Shown here: positions 5,611 through 17,038 of the stretch, in pieces
How the letters are laid out: each line of letters begins with the position of its first letter
How positions within the stretch are numbered: position 1 is the stretch's first letter
Assembly (NCBI GenBank): GCA_026985515.1
Contig: JALSQH010000063.1
Coordinates: 1-17,038, forward strand
Length of the DNA: 17,038 nucleotides
Direction of reading: 5' to 3'
Source of the DNA: a bacterium
GTDB lineage: Bacteria > JALSQH01
Notes under the pieces: model-generated
What the model saw: the letters and a program-made list of their open reading frames with translations, nothing else
The model's database searches: none
What the model was told of the DNA's origin: nothing
Translations under genes and position numbers: made by a program

Positions 5611-7034
5611 TATTTTTCCTCCTCTTTGCTTATTTCAAAGAGTGACATTTGTAAGGTTCTCTCTACCCCTATGGGATCCACCGGATAATTTCCTGTGAAA
5701 CACGCATAACAGAAATTTTCCGCCTTTCCCACCACCTCCATCAATCCTTCAATGCTCAGATAACCAAGGGAATCTGCTTCAAGCTCTTTTCTAATGTCTT
5801 CTATGGAACTCGCCTTCTGTGAGGCGATTAATTCCTTCTGAGCCGGAGTGTCAATGCCGTAGAAACAGGGGTGGGTTACCGGTGGCGAGCTGATTCTCAG
5901 GTGCACCTCCTTTGCCCCGGCATTTCTCAGCATTCTTATTATTTTTCTGCTCGTTGTACCCCTGACAATTGAGTCATCAATTACCACCACTCTTTTACCC
6001 TTTAAAAGATTCTTCACGGGGTTAAGTTTGAGTTTCACTCCTATATCACGCTGTCCCTGTTCCGGTTGTATAAATGTTCTTCCTATGTAGTGGTTTCTAA
6101 TAAGTCCCATCTCAAAGGGAATTCCTGATCTCTGAGAATATCCGATTGCCGCAGGAACCCCTGAGTCTGGAACGGGAATCACCATATCCGCATCAATATA
6201 CTGCTCCTCTGCCAGTTTTTCTCCAAATTTTTTCCTTATTTCATAAACTGAAACACCATCAAAAATCATACTATCAGGTCTTGCAAAGTAAATCAGCTCA
6301 AAGACACAGTAGGATCTTTTGCCTCTTCCAGACAGGTACTTGCTGAAGAGACCACTTTCTCCTATGAATAGAACTTCTCCCGGTTCTATATCCCTTTCAT
6401 ATCTGGCTCCTATCAGGTCAAAAGCGCATGTTTCTGATGCCACCACCCATCCCTCACCAAGTCTTCCAAGCACTAATGGTCTAAAACCATTGGGATCTCT
6501 TGCGGCAATTAGATATCTGGGTGTCAGCATCACCATGGAAAACGCTCCCCGCAATTTATCGAGGGAGTTGACAATCTTATTCTCAATGTACTCAGAGTCG
6601 TCCATAGCTATGAGGTGGAGAAGAATTTCAGTGTCAATGGTGGTGTGAAAAATTGCGCCTTCTCTTTGAAGTTCTTTTCTCAGGATGTCTGCGTTAACAA
6701 TGTTTCCATTGTGGGCAACTGCAAAGGTACCCCAGTGGTATTCCACAACAAGAGGTTGAATATTTCGTGGTGCTGACGCACCATGGGTTGAGTATCTCAC
6801 ATGGCCAATGGCCATATCTCCCGGGAGTTTTCTCAGGATACTTCTTGAGAAAACTTCGGTTACCATTCCCATATGTCTGTAAGTGTATGTTTTACCGGTG
6901 GAACTCTCCATAGAAACTATACCGGCACTCTCCTGACCCCTGTGCTGAAGGGCAAAAAGACCGTAGTATGCCTTCTGAGAGGCATCTTCTACATTGTAGA
7001 AGCCAATAACTCCACACTCATCTCTGAGAGGCAA
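5610..7034 (-). CDS. purF: amidophosphoribosyltransferase, Fe-S type
   Basis: PurF catalyses the first committed step of purine synthesis, PRPP plus glutamine to phosphoribosylamine. The 474-residue protein starts with a short propeptide (MPLRDE) before Cys7, the N-terminal nucleophile of the glutaminase domain, followed by CGVIGFY, HVRYSTHG and AHNGNIVN. The C-terminal phosphoribosyltransferase domain has VIDDSIVRGTTS (351-362). Cys243, Cys390, Cys442 and Cys445 (CYAC) match the [4Fe-4S] cluster ligands of the Bacillus-type enzyme, so a cluster-containing, propeptide-processed form is expected. The start is TTG, preceded by AGGAGGG with a 4-nt spacer; no ATG lies between that site and Cys7. 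It begins 9 nt after the purL stop and overlaps pyrE by one base. Confidence 0.97.
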   Translation of the reverse strand: MPLRDECGVIGFYNVEDASQKAYYGLFALQHRGQESAGIVSMESSTGKTYTYRHMGMVTEVFSRSILRKLPGDMAIGHVRYSTHGASAPRNIQPLVVEYHWGTFAVAHNGNIVNADILRKELQREGAIFHTTIDTEILLHLIAMDDSEYIENKIVNSLDKLRGAFSMVMLTPRYLIAARDPNGFRPLVLGRLGEGWVVASETCAFDLIGARYERDIEPGEVLFIGESGLFSKYLSGRGKRSYCVFELIYFARPDSMIFDGVSVYEIRKKFGEKLAEEQYIDADMVIPVPDSGVPAAIGYSQRSGIPFEMGLIRNHYIGRTFIQPEQGQRDIGVKLKLNPVKNLLKGKRVVVIDDSIVRGTTSRKIIRMLRNAGAKEVHLRISSPPVTHPCFYGIDTPAQKELIASQKASSIEDIRKELEADSLGYLSIEGLMEVVGKAENFCYACFTGNYPVDPIGVERTLQMSLFEISKEEEK

Positions 7035-7043
7035 TATTCCCTC

Positions 7044-9242
7044 CTATGCTGTAAGTGTTTTTTCAAGGGCACTGTCCCAGAGGTGAAATACTTCGTTAAT
7101 ACTCAGATCAAAAACTCCTTCAACTATTGCTCTTTCTCCCCCCGTGGTACCAAGAAAAGTCAGTGGAATTTTCCATTTCTCAGCAACTTCTATTACTTTT
7201 TCTGCGTTACCTTTTTTCACTTCTACCAAAATTTTACCAGGAACTTCGGAAAAAAGGAAGAAATCTTTTCGTATATCCTTAGGCAATTTTACCATGAATC
7301 CTATTTTTTTTCCAAATGTCATTTCAAGAAGTGCAATTGCAGCTCCACCTTCTGAGATGTCGTGCGAAGATTCAATTATACCTCTGTTCCAGAGTTCAAT
7401 CAGTGCCTCCACACTGTTTTTTATGAGTTCAAGGTTCAGAGAAGGTAATTCACCCTTTATTTCACCTGTTAGCATTTTCAGGTATTCACTTCCAGCAATT
7501 GATAGAGGAGAGCTTCCAAGAAGATATATTGAGTTTCCCTCTCCTGCAAAGTAATTTTGGGGTACTTTTTTCATCCCTTCTTTTATGCCCACCATCCCTA
7601 TGGCTGGGGTTGGCAGGATAGGTTTACCGTTTGTTTCATTGTAAAAACTTACATTGCCGCTCACCACGGGCGTTTCAAATACTTCGCATGCCTGACTTAT
7701 TCCCTCAACTGATTGCTCAAACTGCCACATAATTTCAGGTTTTTCAGGATTTCCAAAGTTAAGACAGTCAGTTATTGCAAGAGGACGAGCACCAACACAT
7801 GCAAGATTTACGGCGGCTTCTGCCATTATCCACTTGCTTCCCTCAAGGGGATCAAGATAAACATACCGGGCATTGCTTTCAACAACAAGGGCAAGATATT
7901 TCTCTGTGCCTTTTATTCTGAGAAGGGCAGCGTCTCCCCCCGGTCTTATCACTGTGTTGATCTGTACCATGTGATCATACTGTCTGTAGATCCATCTTTT
8001 ACTGGCGATATTTGGTCTGATAATCAGTTGTTTAATAATTTTTTCATAATCTTCCGGTTCAGGAAGTGGATCCAGATTCTTAACCTCTTCAAGATACAAA
8101 GGTTTTTTTCTGGGTCTATCATAGACTGGCGCTTCTTCGGTGAGTGGTTTGACCGGAAGTTCAAAAACCTTTTCTCCTTTGAAGTAGCCTCTTATTACCT
8201 GTTCTTCAATTATTTCTCCAATTTCAACTGCCTGAAGGTCCCATTTTTCAAAAATCTTTTTGACTTCCTCTTCTTTTCCCTTTTTTGCAACAATAAGCAT
8301 TCTTTCCTGTGACTCTGATAGCATAATTTCATAAGGGGTCATTCCCTCTTCACGGACAGGCACCCTGTCAAGATGAAGAATCATTCCTGTAGCGGCTCTG
8401 CCAGCCATTTCAAAGGAGCTTGAAGTCAACCCTGCTGCTCCCATGTCCTGAATTCCCACAATGAGATCCTTATCCATAACTTCCAGGCATGCTTCCAGAA
8501 GCAATTTTTCAGTGAAAGGGTCTCCAACCTGAACGGTTGGTTTCTTTTCCTCCGTGTCCTCTGAGAATTCTTCAGAGGCCATTGTGGCTCCATGAATGCC
8601 ATCCCTCCCGGTCCGTGATCCCACATAGAGCACTTTGTTACCCGGTCCACTTGCCCTTCCATAAAAGATCTTATCCTTCTTTGCAATTCCAAGGGTAAAA
8701 GCATTTACCAGAATGTTATAGTTGTACTCCTTTTCAAAATATGTTTCCCCTGCCACTGTTGGTACACCCACACAGTTTCCGTAGTCCCCTATTCCAGCTA
8801 CCACACCTTCCACCAGGAATTTCATTCTGGGAAAGTCAAGCTCTCCAAAGTGGAGGGAGTCCATATTGGCGATTGGTCTGGCTCCCATGGTGAAAATGTC
8901 TCTCAAGATTCCTCCCACTCCTGTTGCAGCTCCCTGATAGGGTTCAATGTAGGATGGATGATTGTGACTTTCCATTTTAAATACAACTGCGAGACCATCT
9001 CCAATATCCACAACTCCAGCGTTCTCTCCGGGACCCTGTATTACCTGGGGTCCAGATGTGGGAAACCTCTTCAGGAATTTCCTTGAGCTTTTATAGCTGC
9101 AGTGCTCTGACCACATTGCAGCGAAGATACCTAATTCTGTATAGTTGGGTTTTCTTCCCAGTATTGACAGAATTCTTTCGTATTCTTCCCTTTTCAGGCC
9201 CAGTTCTTCAGCAAGCTGGGGGGTAACTTCAGGTTCTTTCAT
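7044..9242 (-). CDS. purL: phosphoribosylformylglycinamidine synthase subunit, small (multi-subunit) form
   Basis: This is the synthetase subunit of FGAM synthase, which converts formylglycinamide ribonucleotide to the amidine in purine synthesis. At 732 residues it is the small PurL type and therefore needs separate PurQ (glutaminase) and PurS subunits, neither of which is in the window. Recognisable blocks include [14 protein letters not shown] near residue 40, [15 protein letters not shown] around 90, [40 protein letters not shown] and, in the second half, [30 protein letters not shown] and SSHDISEGG. The ATG has GAGGAGAA just upstream, and a strong extended -10 promoter lies in the adjacent spacer. 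It is the first gene of the four-gene minus-strand operon. Confidence 0.97.
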
Positions 9243-9266
9243 ATTTTCTCCTCTGTGCAGGGAATT

Positions 9267-9294
9267 ATTATACCAGAGGGTGCGTTGAATGCAA
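9267..9294 (-). promoter_or_regulatory. extended -10 sigma-70-type promoter for purL-purF-pyrE-trmFO
   Basis: On the minus strand, TTGCAT (9294-9289) is followed by a 16-nt spacer and a perfect TATAAT (9272-9267), with TGG directly before it making an extended -10 element. Transcription would start near 9260, leaving a leader of about 17 nt that contains the purL ribosome-binding site. The leader is too short to hold a riboswitch. Confidence 0.7.
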
Positions 9295-9303
9295 AATTGA
9301 GAT

Positions 9304-9331
9304 TTGAAATTAAAATCATTTCTGATAAAAT
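9304..9331 (+). promoter_or_regulatory. extended -10 sigma-70-type promoter for the PHP-family gene
   Basis: TTGAAA (9304-9309), a 16-nt spacer and TAAAAT (9326-9331), with TG at 9323-9324 one base before the -10. The predicted start of transcription is near 9338, giving a leader of about 20 nt with GGGAGGAG. It is back to back with the purL promoter; the two -35 elements are about 10 nt apart and do not overlap. Confidence 0.6.
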
Positions 9332-9357
9332 TTCATTCTTAATTTTTCCGGGAGGAG

Positions 9358-10164
9358 ATGGTGAAGGTTGATCTTCATGTGCATACAAATTGCTCTGATG
9401 GTGTTTATCCCCCTCTTGAGGTTGTCAGGAGAGCAAGGGAGGGTGGTCTGGATGTTATAGCAATTGCTGATCACGATTGTGTTGAGGGAAATCTTGAGGC
9501 TCAGGATAATCCCTTTGGTGTGATTGTGCTTAAAGCAGTTGAAATCACGAGTTATATTGGTCCGGATGAGATTCATGTGCTGGGGTATTTCAGGGAATTT
9601 TCTGATAATTTGAAAATTTTTCTTAAGGGGATACAGGAAGAGAGGAGGGGACGAATTGTTGAAATTATTTCATCACTTAAGAAACTGGGTGTATCCATAA
9701 GCGAAGAGATCTTTTTTGAAACCTTCAGTGAAGCCAGAACTTACACCAGGGGTCATCTTGTTTTTTATCTTCTCCAGAATAACTACGGATCTTCTCCAAA
9801 GGAAGTATTTGAAAAATATCTGAAAGATTTTTCTGTTCCAATTAGCGTGACTCCCGCTGATGCGATTAAAGTTATTCTGGAAAATGATGGTATACCTGTA
9901 TGGGCACATCCTGTCCCTGAAGAGTTAAACAAGCATTTTGATTATATGCTGAATGCCGGGATCAGAGGAATTGAAGCGTATAATGGAAGAAGGGGGGTGA
10001 CTGAAGAGGTCAGCAGAGAGTTTGTGAAGATTGCAAAGGAACATAATCTCTTTGTTACTGCTGGTTCAGACTGGCATGGTCACACGAAGGATTACAATCT
10101 TGGGGATTTCTACAGGACTGAGAGGGAGGTGGGGGGATTCCTGGCAAATTTTATTCAGTTGTAG
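9358..10164 (+). CDS. PHP-domain phosphoesterase (TrpH / RNase AM-like)
   Basis: A 268-residue stand-alone PHP-domain protein. Metal ligands of the family are visible: DLHVHTNCSDG (His7, His9, Asp14), IADHD (Asp38, His39), VEIT (Glu62), His73 in EIHVLGY, RGH (His133), WAHP (His184) and GSDWHG (Asp238, His240). The arrangement, with an insert between the His73 and His184 motifs, matches the YciV/TrpH group, which act as 5'-3' exoribonucleases or on 3',5'-nucleoside bisphosphates. No DNA polymerase domain is attached. Start choice is open: the ATG at 9358 is only 2 nt from GGAGG (9351-9355), whereas the next codon, GTG 9361, has a better 5-nt spacing, so the first residue may be the Val. It has its own promoter. 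Substrate is inferred from family only. Confidence 0.88.
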   Translation: MVKVDLHVHTNCSDGVYPPLEVVRRAREGGLDVIAIADHDCVEGNLEAQDNPFGVIVLKAVEITSYIGPDEIHVLGYFREFSDNLKIFLKGIQEERRGRIVEIISSLKKLGVSISEEIFFETFSEARTYTRGHLVFYLLQNNYGSSPKEVFEKYLKDFSVPISVTPADAIKVILENDGIPVWAHPVPEELNKHFDYMLNAGIRGIEAYNGRRGVTEEVSREFVKIAKEHNLFVTAGSDWHGHTKDYNLGDFYRTEREVGGFLANFIQL

Positions 10165-10223
10165 TGTCTTGATTCTTGTCTCATCGTTTATCTTCTGCTA
10201 ATCTTCTTTAAAAGGGGGCTATT

Positions 10224-12269
10224 ATGAGAAGAAGAATTTACCTGTCTGGTCTGATTATCTTTTTTCTTTCGCTTTTACTCTCCTGTGCAAAAAAGGAAAG
10301 TGAAAAAATTCATATATCTTCAACTTCCTGTAACATTTTCAGCATGGGGGATTGTCTGACTCCTTTTCCCTCTGATCAATTCCTTGCCAGGGATGGAGAG
10401 CGCACTTTTGTTAATTTGCCTTCACATGCCTTTGAAAAAACAGCGGGTGGTGTAACTTTCCCTGTGGATGCATTTAAAATTTTTGATGGATTCAGCCCTG
10501 CAACCCAGATAATGGCGATTCTTTATCATCCTGTAATAAAAAGTGAAAATTTCCCCGATATTCATCATCCCCGTCGATCTCTCACCCCTGATGGCACCAT
10601 CCAGATTTTTGATGTGGAATCGTGGAAGAGAGTCCCTCTTTTTGCAGAGACAGATTCAAGATCAAAGAATGAAGCATTTCTTCTTATTCATCCACTGGTG
10701 AGGCTTTTGCCATCCCATACTTACCTTGTTGTTTTGAAGAAGGGGATAACCAGTGGTAAATCCCCGCTATCGTTTCAGGCTCTCAGGGATGGGATTATCA
10801 CGGATAATTTGGTTGTGGAAAGCATGAGGAAGAGATATGATGCCTATTTCTCTGCACTTTCATCCAGAGGAGTTGGCAGAGGGGACATCTTTCTGATGTG
10901 GGATTTCACCACAGGGAGCGATGACTTTATAATAGGAAGGAATATGGGTAAGATCATAAACTTTTTAAAGGGCTTTCCCGATCCCGATTCAGGGAGCATC
11001 AATTTGACTCATCGATCCTTGTCCCCTGACAGGGATGATGGAGGTTTCATATATGAGACGATCTATGGAGAAATAAAAGTCCCCTGGTTGCTTGACAGTA
11101 AAGATTTTAGAATAAAGAGAACCGGAGATGGTGGAGTCGATACGGACCATTATACTATGAAAGAGATTCCCTTTGTTATGGAAATACCCCGTTGTGCCAC
11201 ATCCACCACATATCCATCCATAATGATTTATGGTCATGGCCTCGGTGGTTCTTATACAGGTTTAACAGGGTACCATATGAGAAAGAGACTTGAGGAATGG
11301 TGTTCCATAGGATTTGCAGTTAACTGGTATGGAGCAGACTATGAGGGTATTCAGCATGTTGTAAATGTTGCTGTTGCTACGGAACTGCATCCCTTTTTTG
11401 GTTTTATCTCAATGGCTGAAAGGTTACTGCAGGGTCATCTGAATTTTCTTTTTCTTCTTAAATCCATTCCTGCAATTATGGACCTTGTATATCCTTATCC
11501 AGTAACTCTGGGTGTTGATGGGAAAAATAAGTTAGGTATCTATTACTATGGGGGTTCCAATGGGGGGATTCAGGGTGCCACATTCGCATATACAGCAAAT
11601 ACCCTCTATCCTTTTTTCAGGGGATTTGTTCTGGTGGTGAATGGGGGAATATGGTCAATACTATTCCAGAGATATCAAAACTGGACAATGTTTGAAAATC
11701 TTTTCCTTGCAAAAATACCTGACCTCGAAGAGGTGACGAAAATGGCAATTCTGGCTCAGTTCTTTTTTGATTTTGTGGATCCGATAACTTTTGCAAGATA
11801 CTACAATTTAAAAGGATCTGAAAATCTCTCTGATCTCTGTGAAGCGATCCCCCTTCCTTTCAGAGGATTGTGGGGGAAATGTAATCTTGATTTTTCGGGG
11901 GTGAGGATTCTCTCCCAGGAGAGCATAGGTGATCCAGCAGTGAGCAATATTACCACGGAGATATGGGCAAGAACTGCGGGGATTCCTGGATTAAAGCATC
12001 TCATTGATTCCCCATTCGGGATTGAAGAAAAAGAGGGTCCTTTAACAAGTGCCCTGACCCAGTGGGATGCCCATCCTGATCCTCTTCCTCCGGATAGCAA
12101 TTCCCCCATTTCTGGCAAGCAAACAACAGTGGTTAAATGCGGGGACAGGTATGTCAGTGCCCATGAAGCTCCATTCTGTCTTGATGTGGCCAATGAGCAG
12201 ATCGGGGAATTTGTAAAAACTGGAATGATCTTTCAGCTGTGCAGTGGTGGGATTTGTGACCCTGAGTGA
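10224..12269 (+). CDS. putative alpha/beta-hydrolase lipoprotein of unknown substrate
   Basis: A 681-residue exported lipoprotein. Residues 1-21 form a type II signal peptide: basic MRRR, a hydrophobic stretch, then lipobox LLSC with Cys21 as the lipidated residue; the following AKK does not suggest inner-membrane retention by the classic Asp rule. The mature N-terminus has a CLTPFPSDQFL segment like that seen before lipase-type domains in secreted bacterial hydrolases. A possible oxyanion-hole segment YGHGLGGS (336-343) and a nucleophile elbow YGGSNGG (442-448, Ser445) support an alpha/beta hydrolase fold. The C-terminal part contains several Cys (for example in VKCGDRY, PFCLD and LCSGGICDPE) that may form disulfides. 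AAAAGGGGG precedes the ATG. The substrate is unknown and no clear terminator follows. It may be catalytic or a degenerate relative. Confidence 0.72.
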   Translation: MRRRIYLSGLIIFFLSLLLSCAKKESEKIHISSTSCNIFSMGDCLTPFPSDQFLARDGERTFVNLPSHAFEKTAGGVTFPVDAFKIFDGFSPATQIMAILYHPVIKSENFPDIHHPRRSLTPDGTIQIFDVESWKRVPLFAETDSRSKNEAFLLIHPLVRLLPSHTYLVVLKKGITSGKSPLSFQALRDGIITDNLVVESMRKRYDAYFSALSSRGVGRGDIFLMWDFTTGSDDFIIGRNMGKIINFLKGFPDPDSGSINLTHRSLSPDRDDGGFIYETIYGEIKVPWLLDSKDFRIKRTGDGGVDTDHYTMKEIPFVMEIPRCATSTTYPSIMIYGHGLGGSYTGLTGYHMRKRLEEWCSIGFAVNWYGADYEGIQHVVNVAVATELHPFFGFISMAERLLQGHLNFLFLLKSIPAIMDLVYPYPVTLGVDGKNKLGIYYYGGSNGGIQGATFAYTANTLYPFFRGFVLVVNGGIWSILFQRYQNWTMFENLFLAKIPDLEEVTKMAILAQFFFDFVDPITFARYYNLKGSENLSDLCEAIPLPFRGLWGKCNLDFSGVRILSQESIGDPAVSNITTEIWARTAGIPGLKHLIDSPFGIEEKEGPLTSALTQWDAHPDPLPPDSNSPISGKQTTVVKCGDRYVSAHEAPFCLDVANEQIGEFVKTGMIFQLCSGGICDPE

Positions 12270-14224: not shown

Positions 14225-15121
14225 ATGGCTGTTAAAGGGTACAGGTATTCTGAGGCTAAAAAACTTGTGAAACATGCTTTACAGAAAGGATTATCTGTTT
14301 TCCTGTGGGGTCATCCTGGCATCGGAAAATCAACAATGGCAAGGGAAATCGCATCTGAAATGGGTTTGCCTCTAATTGATATCAGACTTGCTCAGTCAGA
14401 TCCCACTAAGATTGGAGGGATTCTCTATCCGGATCGTGAAAAGGGATTGTCAGTCTGGTTGAGACCTTCATGGGTACCTGTGGATAAACCAGCTTTCATT
14501 TTCCTTGATGAAATAAATGCTGCAGTTACAAAACTTCATCAGTCAATCGCGTACCAGATAGTACTTGAAAAGAGATTGAGAGAGTGGAAGTTTGCTCCAG
14601 GTACTGTGGTGCTTGCTGCAGGAAATCTTGAAGAGGATTCTGCCATTGTTCAAACTCTCTCCCAGGCTCTTTCAAACAGATTTGTTCATTTTCAATTGAA
14701 GGTTGATGTTGATGAATGGATTAAGTGGGCGAAGAGAAACGGGATTGTTGAGCCGATTATCAGTTACAAAAAATTCAGGGGGGAAAACTCTCTCTACAAC
14801 AATACAGGAGATCATGCCTTTCCTTCTCCAAGAAGCTGGGAATTTGCATCAAGACTCATTGAGGATGAAATCAGATCTGAAAAACCATCCATAACCACAA
14901 TAAGAAATCTGGTTGAATCTGCTGTGGGGAAGGGAGAAGCCAGTGCATTCATGACCTTTTACAGACACTACAGGAAAATTGATGTTTCTGGTATGAGCTT
15001 TAAAGGGAATATTGTTAAAGTTGCAAAGACTACAGAACCTTCTTTTATACATGCACTTCTTTCAGCAATTGCTGTGTATTACTCAAAGCATTTCAAGTTG
15101 ATTAAAAAAGATTCCTATTAA
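14225..15121 (+). CDS. MoxR-family AAA+ ATPase, C-terminus lost to a frameshift
   Basis: A MoxR-type AAA+ ATPase of the group linked to SWIM and VWA-like/metallopeptidase partners. Residues show Walker A GHPGIGKST (29-37), IDIRLAQSDPTKIGG, Walker B FIFLDEINAA (91-100), sensor 1 AAGN (131-134), the arginine-bearing LSNRFVHF (149-156) and sensor 2 region FPSPRSWE (199-206). The AAA+ core looks functional. The frame stops after 298 residues, but about 60 more residues of plausible C-terminus lie in the +1 frame directly downstream (see 15102-15293), which would give about 355 residues. The break maps to a run of six A at 15104-15109; five A would restore one frame. The start ATG follows AAAGGGG, 3 nt after the SWIM stop. 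It may be a mutated gene, a sequencing error, or recoded; mutation is my preference. Confidence 0.88.
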   Translation: MAVKGYRYSEAKKLVKHALQKGLSVFLWGHPGIGKSTMAREIASEMGLPLIDIRLAQSDPTKIGGILYPDREKGLSVWLRPSWVPVDKPAFIFLDEINAAVTKLHQSIAYQIVLEKRLREWKFAPGTVVLAAGNLEEDSAIVQTLSQALSNRFVHFQLKVDVDEWIKWAKRNGIVEPIISYKKFRGENSLYNNTGDHAFPSPRSWEFASRLIEDEIRSEKPSITTIRNLVESAVGKGEASAFMTFYRHYRKIDVSGMSFKGNIVKVAKTTEPSFIHALLSAIAVYYSKHFKLIKKDSY

Positions 15122-15293
15122 GAATATTGTAATATTTTTTAAGCAGAGTGGAATAACCAATGAACACAAAATAATTTTCCTATCCAAGTTGAATAAAAAA
15201 GCTCTGGAGGATTTTACAAGGAGAAAGTATGCTGTTTTGATCCTGAAGGATCTTTCCAGAATGGTAAATTCGTTACTTAAAGATTCTATATGA
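15102..15293 (+). pseudogene. out-of-frame C-terminal remnant of the MoxR ATPase
   Basis: In the frame one base ahead of the MoxR frame, the sequence is open from 15102 to a TGA at 15291-15293. After the shared Lys-Lys it adds about 60 residues, including KNIVIFFKQSGITNEHKIIF and RRKYAVLILKDLSRMVNSLL. Its amphipathic character suits the C-terminal lid end of this ATPase group. The TGA overlaps the next start as ATGATGA (15290-15296), a classic coupling arrangement between consecutive operon genes, which strongly suggests that this was once the real end of the MoxR gene. There is no start codon or ribosome-binding site for it as an independent gene. Confidence 0.7.
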
Positions 15294-15446
15294 TGAGAAA
15301 AAAGGATAGATTTGATCCTGATAAATTGCACAGAAAGGTTGATGATGCCAGATTGATCGTTTCTCTTATGGGACCATTCTGGTCCACAATGTTAAGTTAC
15401 ATACCTTTTGATATTGAGAAATTAATTGATAGTTACGAATATACCG
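15290..15446 (+). pseudogene. 5' fragment of a DUF2201-type putative metallopeptidase gene
   Basis: Beginning at ATG 15290 (or ATG 15293), the frame encodes MMRKKDRFDPDKLHRKVDDA, then ARLIVSLMGPFWSTMLSYIP and a short acidic stretch. The PFW-STMLSYIPF segment resembles the N-terminal PFFxxLLxxLP region of the MoxR-associated putative metallopeptidases (DUF2201). The homology stops near 15446 and the matching continuation, including the HE metal motif, reappears at about 16676 in another frame. The two parts are separated by an AT-rich insert. By chance the fragment is in frame with the insert's gene, so the open frame runs on to 16321. The start is coupled to the former MoxR stop. Confidence 0.68.
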
Positions 15447-15458
15447 ATACGCCATCGC
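15447..15458 (+). repeat. left-end arm of the insert, inverted match to the tail
   Basis: ATACGCCATCGC here matches the reverse complement of GCGACGGCATAT (16589-16600) at 10 of 12 positions. Both differences are transitions that would be G-T wobbles on the bottom strand. In a circularised cassette this would be the outer right (R'-like) arm of attC. Confidence 0.5.
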
Positions 15459-15460
15459 TA

Positions 15461-15469
15461 AAAGGAGGT
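15461..15469 (+). promoter_or_regulatory. strong ribosome-binding site deciding the start of the insert gene
   Basis: AAAGGAGGT, close to the perfect anti-16S complement, lies 6 nt before ATG 15476. It identifies this ATG as the native start of the inserted gene, although the frame is open further upstream into the peptidase fragment. No other plausible ribosome-binding site is seen between 15300 and 15476. Confidence 0.8.
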
Positions 15470-15475
15470 AAAACA

Positions 15476-16321
15476 ATGAGAGATGTATTAAACTGCATTA
15501 AAAAATATGTGGAAGTTATGTATGATGAAAAATTCATGCTACATTCGAAACATCTATCTAAAAGATTACTAAATGGAATACAAAAAAGCTACAATCTCAG
15601 AGAACCAGAAGTCGTTAAGATTATTGAAAATATTATAAACAGCATTGGGCAATTTTCTACAGGGGGCAATAGACTTAATATTTCTACTAATTCGGTTTTT
15701 ATTCACGGGAATAAATCTCAGGTAGAATTTGAATATTATGGAAAAAGCACTCGACGAGAACTTGGAGATATTATTTTTATCTTATCTGTTGTTTATAATG
15801 GCAAAAAATATTTTGAGAAAATGACTATTACCCAAGTAAAAAAATCAAAAAATGTCCAATGGAAGTTCAATAACGATGGTGCTAAAGAACAACTTTATTT
15901 ACTTTCTAAATTTCCGACATTCAGAGGTGCAAATAATTCACTAATACCTAAGAAAAACTATAATCTACCCAATTACTCAGGATGTCTTGGTTCCCATGGG
16001 TTACTTTATTATCCCGGTGATTTTGCTTTAGTCAGTTCAGAACAATTGGGGACAATTATGTCAGGAAAAAAGAAATTAGAATTAAAAAATTTGTTGTCAA
16101 TTATTACCCCAAATCATTTTTGCCCTTGTTCCTGTTGCTGGCATCTCTCGGATGATATAGATCTTGAAGAGTTTTATCACCTTTTACATAAATTAATCTA
16201 CTTTTACCCACGCTATTTTAGATATTTTCCCTTTATGTGTAATTTACAGATATTAGGGAATAATTGCATTTCATATAATGTGTATGATTTTTCAGATAAG
16301 TATTTAAAAGGACACATATAA
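15476..16321 (+). CDS. hypothetical protein in the insert, possibly nuclease-like, truncated by a duplication
   Basis: From the ATG with the strong ribosome-binding site this encodes 281 residues; the frame is also open back to 15290, giving a 343-residue fusion with the peptidase fragment. I do not recognise the family. Residues 92-122 contain E95-L-G-D98, a strand-like IIFILSVV and TITQ120-V-K122-K, which resembles the D...(E/Q)xK active-site spacing of PD-(D/E)xK nucleases, followed by EQLYLLSKFPTF. A Cys-rich HFCPCSCCWHL lies at about 214-224. Codon use is much more AT-rich than that of the neighbours. The TAA at 16319-16321 is produced by a 22-bp tandem duplication; without it the frame runs to 16583, for about 361 residues. 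The short form may not be functional. Nuclease function is a weak inference. Confidence 0.6.
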   Translation: MRDVLNCIKKYVEVMYDEKFMLHSKHLSKRLLNGIQKSYNLREPEVVKIIENIINSIGQFSTGGNRLNISTNSVFIHGNKSQVEFEYYGKSTRRELGDIIFILSVVYNGKKYFEKMTITQVKKSKNVQWKFNNDGAKEQLYLLSKFPTFRGANNSLIPKKNYNLPNYSGCLGSHGLLYYPGDFALVSSEQLGTIMSGKKKLELKNLLSIITPNHFCPCSCCWHLSDDIDLEEFYHLLHKLIYFYPRYFRYFPFMCNLQILGNNCISYNVYDFSDKYLKGHI

Positions 16322-16339
16322 GTATTTAAAAGGACACAT
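16296..16339 (+). repeat. perfect 22-bp tandem duplication
   Basis: The 22-base unit beginning ATAAGTATTTAAAAGG and ending ACACAT occurs twice without a mismatch, at 16296-16317 and 16318-16339. Because 22 is not a multiple of three, the second copy shifts the frame and creates the TAA at 16319-16321. Its perfection suggests a recent event. Confidence 0.97.
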
Positions 16340-16583
16340 AGGAGAGTTAATATATGCTAAAAAATTACTCTCCAACAGACATGCTTTTCAATTTTTGCAT
16401 GATTTGCTTTATACGATAAGAAAAAAGGCAGAAAGAGAAAATTTAAAGGATGTTTTAAAATTTCTGTCTTCTTATAGCGATGGATATGGTAACGAAGGAG
16501 GCGAAGGGGATAATGATATGAACTATGACGGTGGAGGGATTGGTATAGTACATACAACAATAGACCTCGGAGAAGGTGAATGA
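16340..16583 (+). pseudogene. disconnected C-terminal part of the insert gene
   Basis: Removing one copy of the 22-bp repeat continues the insert gene in frame as GELIYAKKLLSNRHAFQFLH, DLLYTIRKKAERENLKDV and a Gly/Asp-rich end finishing in GGGIGIVHTTIDLGEGE, with TGA at 16581-16583. That is about 80 further residues. A TTG at 16395 could in principle start a 62-residue product, but no ribosome-binding site supports it. The attC-like tail follows the stop within 5 nt, which supports this as the original gene end. Confidence 0.8.
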
Positions 16584-16588
16584 TGGTG

Positions 16589-16675
16589 GCGACGGCATAT
16601 AACAAGCGGGTATCTCGTTCGAGCTATCAGCCCTCACCCAAATCGCCTTTGGCAACTTCAGATATCTGCAAAACG
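16589..16675 (+). repeat. attC-like structured tail of the insert
   Basis: GCGGGTATCT (16606-16615) can pair with AGATATCTGC (16660-16669) through ten base pairs, two of them G-T. Inside lie a CTCG-TT-CGAG hairpin (16614-16623) and GCC-TTT-GGC (16644-16652). Outside, GCGACGGCATAT (16589-16600) pairs with the left end of the insert when the ends are joined. The arms are then separated by unpaired AACAA and AAAACG, like the central spacer of an attC site. A canonical G-TTRRRY core is not visible, so this is a resemblance, not proof. Confidence 0.45.
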
Positions 16676-17038
16676 GCACAAGAATAGTCCTAGTAACCCA
16701 GCTTTACGAATTCGGTTCAGATGTTATGGCTGCCATAATAATACATGAGCTTATGCGTATTGCGTATATGCATTTTGTCAGGGGAAATGATAAGATCCAG
16801 ATTCTGTGGAATGTAGCTGCTGTTATTGTTGTAAATTCTCATATTGTGGAACATTACAAAAGGGTAACTCTTACACTGGAGTGCTTATAAATACTAAGTT
16901 TGAAGATAAAGATGTTGAGGAGGTTTATTCAGCTATCTTAAAGGATTTTTACAAAACATTTGGAAATGATCCTGAAGGAGTTGATGATCAAGAAATAGAG
17001 GAATGGATAAAGAAAAATTTTGAAAAGTATATGCTTGG
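16676..17038 (+). pseudogene. 3' part of the DUF2201-type putative metallopeptidase gene, frameshifted and running off the window
   Basis: The first part (to 16890) reads GTRIVLVTQLYEFGSDVMAA, then IIIHELMRIAYMHFVRGN, DKIQILWNVAAVIVVNSHIV and a stop at 16888-16890. This matches the order of the MoxR-associated putative metallopeptidase domain: DGxRIxxN, HExxHxAxxH, then WNxAxDxxVN. Two key residues differ: the second His of HExxH is Arg (HELMR), and the Asp after WNxA is Val. After about 16858 the homology continues in the -1 frame as KGNSYTGVLINTKFEDKDVE, EVYSAIL and onward to the window end. One extra A in AAAAGGG would restore the frame. The usual C-terminal VWA-like part would lie beyond the window. 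The domain is normally paired with the MoxR ATPase upstream. Confidence 0.7.

Follow-up and report, generated by a model that had tools for sequence, protein, structure and literature searches.

A lone integron gene cassette within a decayed metallopeptidase gene, and an integron-like platform with an I2-less recombinase in the same genome

An integron cassette can reside at a secondary site, as aadB in RSF1010 exemplifies, and insertions of cassettes at attG sites have reportedly been described by Loot et al. in 2024, a study cited in PMC12901181. Secondary-site insertion of cassettes is known, with targets that follow a GNT-like rule (PMC10127599), and attC arrays without an integrase are known as well (PMC9024848), also in archaeal MAGs (PMC9668308). 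In the standard integron integrase, IntI, the I2 insert is held to be necessary for cassette capture and to occur in no other protein, and its deletion abolishes IntI1 activity (PMC7790495). Our search of an open-access library returned no description of I2-less integron integrases; most subscription papers lay outside that search, which is not proof of novelty.

The DNA analysed here (the window) is a 17,038-nucleotide stretch of a bacterial contig, and it is near certain that its insert at about 15447-16675 is a lone integron gene cassette, lying within a decayed DUF2201-type metallopeptidase gene. Relatives of the encoded protein were found at seven loci in other genomes, the best five lying in a Thermococci-labelled MAG (L016, 73% identity), Kapaibacterium (L017, 57%), Tepidanaerobacteraceae (L018, 53%), Terraquivivens (L019, 43%) and Nitrospinae (L020, 43%). 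At L016, L017 and L020 the homologous gene is observed between attC-like sites, so this is a cassette family that resides in arrays elsewhere. The features of the window are as follows, with the evidence for each in brackets.

14225-15121, forward strand: MoxR-like AAA ATPase gene that neighbours the interrupted gene on its upstream side (Pfam PF00004, E 1.7e-9)
15290-15446, forward strand: 5' part of the host gene, DUF2201_N / putative metallopeptidase family (joined flanks, PF13203)
15447-16675, forward strand: integron gene cassette whose left boundary may be off by a few nt (homologous cassettes L016, L017 and L020 with attC on both sides)
15447-15458, forward strand: cassette left end ATACGCCATCGC, the R' side of attC without its leading TT (compare L020 CGTTATACGCCATCGCC and L016 CGTTATACGCC)
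15460-15469, forward strand: ribosome-binding site AAAAGGAGGT (sequence; comparable position in L016, L017 and L020)
15476-16321, forward strand: cassette ORF, 281 aa, without known family (identities to L016-L020 as above)
16297-16340, forward strand: 22-bp tandem duplication (16297-16318 plus 16319-16340) that shifts the frame of the cassette gene (sequence; homologues uninterrupted, ..DKYLRGVIGELIYAK..)
16320-16583, forward strand: C-terminal part of the cassette gene, frame-shifted (translation; matches family columns 236-357, E 2e-25)
16589-16675, forward strand: attC tail (covariance model R1, E 1.2e-4, window excluded from training)
16594-16603, forward strand: R'' of the attC tail, GGCATATAAC
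16606-16615, forward strand: L'' of the attC tail
16660-16669, forward strand: L' of the attC tail
16675, forward strand: crossover G of the attC tail
16676-17038, forward strand: 3' part of the host gene, decayed, with HELMR for HExxH and a later frameshift (translations; relatives L013 and L095)

The layout proposed in an earlier sequence-only reading, one ORF with its own ribosome-binding site and an attC close behind in the same orientation, is that of a cassette and is present in full. When the insert ends are joined (16589-16675 followed by 15447 onward), the outer arms GGCGACGGCATAT and ATACGCCATCGC pair, the inner arms GCGGGTATCT (16606-16615) and AGATATCTGC (16660-16669) pair as well, and AACAA and AAAACG remain unpaired, so that recomputation reproduced the arms, spacers and inner pairs described in that reading. 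R'' and R' as well as L'' and L' are thus paired around an unpaired spacer, R' being complete only with TT restored: once TT is added at the junction, a full attC results in which GTT pairs with AAC. The cassette protein itself has no match in Pfam, PHROGs, NCBIfam, PADLOC, plasmids, phages or viral contigs. Its conserved residues, which resemble E..GD..(Q)xK, hint at a nuclease-type fold, and AlphaFold with six sequences reached a pLDDT of only 30.

Independent support for the attC site comes from a covariance model, R1, built without the window from six attC sites adjoining homologous cassettes (alignment A2, with two helices); a mixed-family attC alignment, A1, was misaligned and was excluded from the model. 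The R1 helices covary, with 82% of cells paired and 11 of 20 pairs changed on both sides; no shuffle was as good on four of five measures, and slid versions were far worse. R1 matches the window only once, at 16594-16684 (24 bits, E 1.2e-4); the match falls at the right end of the insert and arises although the R' half in the inserted form is host DNA. Across the 2.36-Mb host genome this site is the only credible match, the next (14.8 bits, E 4.7) not being credible; all such genome-wide statements rest on searches of the contigs of one MAG assembly (97.6% complete). A fixed two-arm score on the joined ends was reached by none of 1000 dinucleotide shuffles, a result that is supportive only, since we devised the score ourselves and applied it to ends preselected in the sequence-only reading. 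Folded as DNA, the linear tail is no better than shuffles, as is expected when the inserted form lacks the R' half, and an Rfam scan of the window gave no match. A palindrome arisen by chance, or some other mobile element, could draw on that unremarkable fold and on the missing GTT core, but it is strongly contradicted by the independently built model and by the homologous cassettes, and we regard it as scarcely credible.

The ends of the homologous cassettes resemble those of the insert in the window. With the crossover point written as a slash, the left ends read CGTTATACGCCATGC in L016, CGTTATACGCCATCGCC in L020, CGTCATATGCTGTCGCC in L017 and CCGATACGCCATCGCT in the window; the homologues begin G/TTATACGCCATCGC and the window G/ATACGCCATCGC, the boundary being G/TT in L016 and L020 and G/TC in L017. 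The right ends are also alike (TATCTCGTTCGAGCTATCAGCCCTCACCCAAATC..ACTTCAGATATCTGC in the window, TATCTGGTTCGGTCTTGCAGCCCTTGTCCGAATC..ACTTCAGATACCCGC in L017). The G/TT boundary is therefore not met at the left end of the window, where TT is absent. The G proposed for both junctions fits all homologues on the right (16675), whereas on the left the end is uncertain by a few nucleotides. The earlier statement that the canonical GTT is missing holds for the inserted form; its cause would most simply be a later small deletion at the left junction rather than a different core, an inference from sequence. Similar tails thus flank homologous cassettes in other genomes, and the sister genome G001, the only one of the same family, has one clear R1 site with a cassette array on contig C102 (L092), plus one weaker. 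A gene of that array (L092 1-1178) encodes a PD-(D/E)XK-like motif, EPDIIIKTDNALFFIEAKL, and on another contig of the same genome (C159, L093 8085-8155) a weak attC-model match of 22.6 bits lacks outer arms. A further copy of the window's cassette adjoins a decayed recombinase gene in genome G203 (L117 5659-6860), which is without standard IntI.

The disruption of the host gene is likewise observed. The joined flanks form one reading frame, with a weak PF13203 (DUF2201_N) match (E 6.4e-4, 19.9 bits, below the 23.2 cut-off), and in the relative L013 a DUF2201-type metallopeptidase gene adjoins a homologous ATPase. The insert thus lies within a coding gene and outside attI, as had been suggested, and is now recognised as a cassette at a non-attI site. 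The exact crossover is either ACCG/ or ACCGATG/. The relatives L013 and L095 conserve T-D-G ('FATDGRRIYY') before the strand that precedes HExxH, and the window retains ACC GAT on the left and GGC ACA AGA on the right; because of this, the left boundary of the cassette remains uncertain by a few nucleotides, and of the boundaries proposed earlier only the right one is firm. Two readings of the junction fit. In the first, the host sequence is ACCG/GCAC and the left end of the cassette lost TT; in the second, it is ACCGATG/GCAC, and five nucleotides (GTTAT) were lost between two AT repeats. The second preserves T-D-G and sets TATA at the distance seen in the attI-like site of contig C163, introduced below (TATAACTGAG/TT versus TATACCGATG/GC), which is suggestive only. 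Searches of host-gene relatives gave only distant homologues and did not reveal the exact empty site. In the absence of TT, the host start and the cassette ORF share one frame (15290-16321); in view of the 22-bp duplication, this reads more like decay than like a fusion under selection. Lone attC sites can persist after array decay and both genes here are decayed, so the insert might be conceived as all that is left of a decayed cassette array rather than a single secondary-site insertion, yet the flanks belong to one gene and no other attC lies nearby, which makes such an origin very improbable.

No standard IntI (TIGR02249 over cut-off) is present in the host genome or in its sister, as against 40 of the 290 genomes searched. 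A search for an integron integrase in the host did find an integron-like platform with an unusual recombinase. The best-scoring tyrosine recombinase of the host, a 370-aa protein encoded on contig C163 (L008 9073-10285), fails the TIGR02249 cut-off (225.5 versus 265 bits), passes that of NF040815 (261 versus 220), and scores equally against 2a3v and XerA 5hxy. It lacks the IntI-specific I2 insert, where an alignment with 28 IntI proteins shows a gap, and its N-terminus is HARP-like (PF07443, E 4e-4 for the N-terminus alone; 20.2 versus 25 bits, below the curated cut-off). IntegronFinder's second integrase profile was built from the IntI-specific domain (PMC9668308), which this enzyme lacks. 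Directly 3' of its stop codon lies a palindrome that ends ..GGGTATAACTGAG/TTGTGCGCAATCAG where the contig ends. We observe here an attI-like site, ..TATAACTGAG/TTGTGCGC, so that a G/TT site stands next to an integrase as in an integron platform; the contig stops 14 nt into the presumed first cassette, and its array is unseen. A promoter-like TTGAGT-17-TATAAT lies just upstream of the recombinase gene. We set aside the protein's identity as a plain Xer, since its relatives adjoin attC arrays.

That a standard I2-bearing IntI acted in trans, from a plasmid, a phage or a lost integron, with the C163 enzyme uninvolved, remains possible and is about a one-in-three prospect in our judgement: IntI is common elsewhere, the cassette family is spread across distant lineages, and the host MAG is not 100% complete. 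Against it, neither host nor sister has an IntI over cut-off, and the host does encode an I2-less recombinase next to an attI-like site.

The relatives of the C163 recombinase bear on this point. A search of 241 genomes gave matches in eight others, and beside three of these platforms (G087:C55, G087:C202 and G169:C9) R1 finds attC sites: three at the first (48.3, 33.7 and 41.0 bits) and one at each of the others (41.6 and 48.0). In all three the recombinase and the cassettes share one direction, with an attI-like site downstream of the recombinase gene that ends ..GAG/TT or ..TAG/TT; two of the three recombinase genes look damaged, that of G169:C9 being split by a frameshift and that of G087:C202 lacking its N-terminal part. 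An attI-like motif resembling RTATRAACNAG/TT recurs in several platforms, more loosely in C163, G053 and G203, and sites of similar kind are also visible in G162 and G053.

Two Chryseobacterium plasmids, NZ_CP041688.1 (a complete plasmid) and NZ_CP094530.1, share 95.8% identity over 1190 bp that include the integrase, a relative of the C163 enzyme, and ..ACATATAAACAAG/TT, and diverge directly after the ..AACAAG/TT crossover, 3' of which NZ_CP041688.1 carries several cassettes. R1 performs poorly on these distant sites (12.7 bits for one), which rest instead on R''/left-end pairing and hairpin arms. In nine cassettes from the arrays of G087:C55, G087:C202, G169:C9 and NZ_CP041688.1 the left end pairs with the cassette's own R'' at 9-12 of 12 positions, at least nine having a chance of 4e-4 each; cassette ends were chosen by eye, and one NZ_CP094530.1 cassette, with R'' wrongly chosen, scored 4. 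An attC array adjoining the integrase is thus observed in these four cases. Also on NZ_CP041688.1 (L135), an ORF-less cassette-like unit of about 172 bp occurs in three copies (6116-6287, 8211-8382 and about 10595-10766), and an IS110-family element (9217-10480) sits in an apparent attC site.

The association varies among the other relatives. In the complete genome G203 an I2-less recombinase, divergent from the cassettes, stands beside attC-like sites, one of which R1 supports at 22 bits; in this second kind of layout (L118 6100-8600) the array holds a repeat of the recombinase's upstream region. In G162 (C5:43265-47014), which has no standard IntI, a recombinase gene fragment is followed some 3 kb downstream by two attC-model matches of the same orientation. 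More distant relatives at 42-48% identity (G053:C41, G208, G086 and G030) have no attC-model match nearby, and the recombinases of G208 and G086 adjoin IS91-type transposase genes, so that not every member of the wider family is associated with arrays. Further relatives sought around G087 and in viral contigs added little. For the related arrays, boundaries were assigned by eye once the model had matched; many of the genomes are MAGs, and the association is seen without a random set of Xer genes as background.

These I2-less recombinases might be mere passengers or degenerate neighbours of arrays that an IntI in trans moves, as the reported need of IntI1 for I2 in cassette capture (PMC7790495) and the two standard IntI genes also present in G087 would allow. 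This is hard to square with the similar attI-like sites, with an exact G/TT, that head several platforms, with two plasmids that diverge at exactly that point, and with G169, G162 and G203, where attC-model matches and I2-less relatives occur without a standard IntI over cut-off; we consider it unlikely.

Taken together, we hold it highly probable that a circular cassette was inserted at a secondary site by an integron-type tyrosine recombinase, with the C163 enzyme as the likely agent. The cassette would have entered through its single-stranded attC hairpin, circle formation and recombination both being inferred, at a non-attI, attG-like site in the metallopeptidase gene. It would have come to lie in the direction of the operon and probably under its transcription, expression being an inference. 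Later, a few bases would have gone from the left junction, and both the cassette gene, with its 22-bp duplication, and the host gene would have decayed. The enzyme may well have been the I2-less, HARP-tailed C163 recombinase with its own attI-like site; that enzymes of this class catalyse attC x attI recombination, are functional integron integrases and made the insertion in the window is inferred. Caveats to the insertion are the left junction without TT, the lack of an empty site in a close relative, and host evidence from one MAG. We lean slightly towards a broader proposal, that a second lineage of I2-less, HARP-like integron integrases heads attC arrays in genomes and plasmids and inserted the cassette of the window; its members score below the standard integrase model, and some integrase-less arrays may belong to it.

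The feature in the window adds a further case to a kind already known, and the platform class would count as a new variant. Since it arose in nature, has decayed and lies in a poorly sampled lineage, the insertion indicates that outside laboratory systems, too, cassettes can leave integrons and enter ordinary genes. If real, I2-less platforms would contradict the requirement for I2 in using single-stranded attC sites, might serve as a present-day model of the pre-I2 state, and could account for some of the attC arrays in which no integrase has been reported.

Compared with known systems, the insert resembles secondary-site cassettes (aadB in RSF1010, attG) in being one promoterless gene with an attC outside attI, and differs in its environmental lineage without standard IntI, its decay and its partly lost left GTT. 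The host, with attC and no standard IntI, resembles CALIN or a single attC without integrase in the terms of IntegronFinder (PMC9024848), but has an integron-like platform on another contig. Like IntI (TIGR02249; IntI4, PDB 2a3v), the C163 enzyme is a tyrosine recombinase beside an attI-like site and cassettes; unlike IntI, it has no I2, carries a HARP-like N-terminal stretch, and is encoded in the direction of the cassettes with the attI-like site at the 3' end of its gene. It passes the model of the XerA/XerC type (NF040815, named 'site-specific tyrosine recombinase/integron integrase' by NCBI), from which its relatives differ in heading attC arrays.
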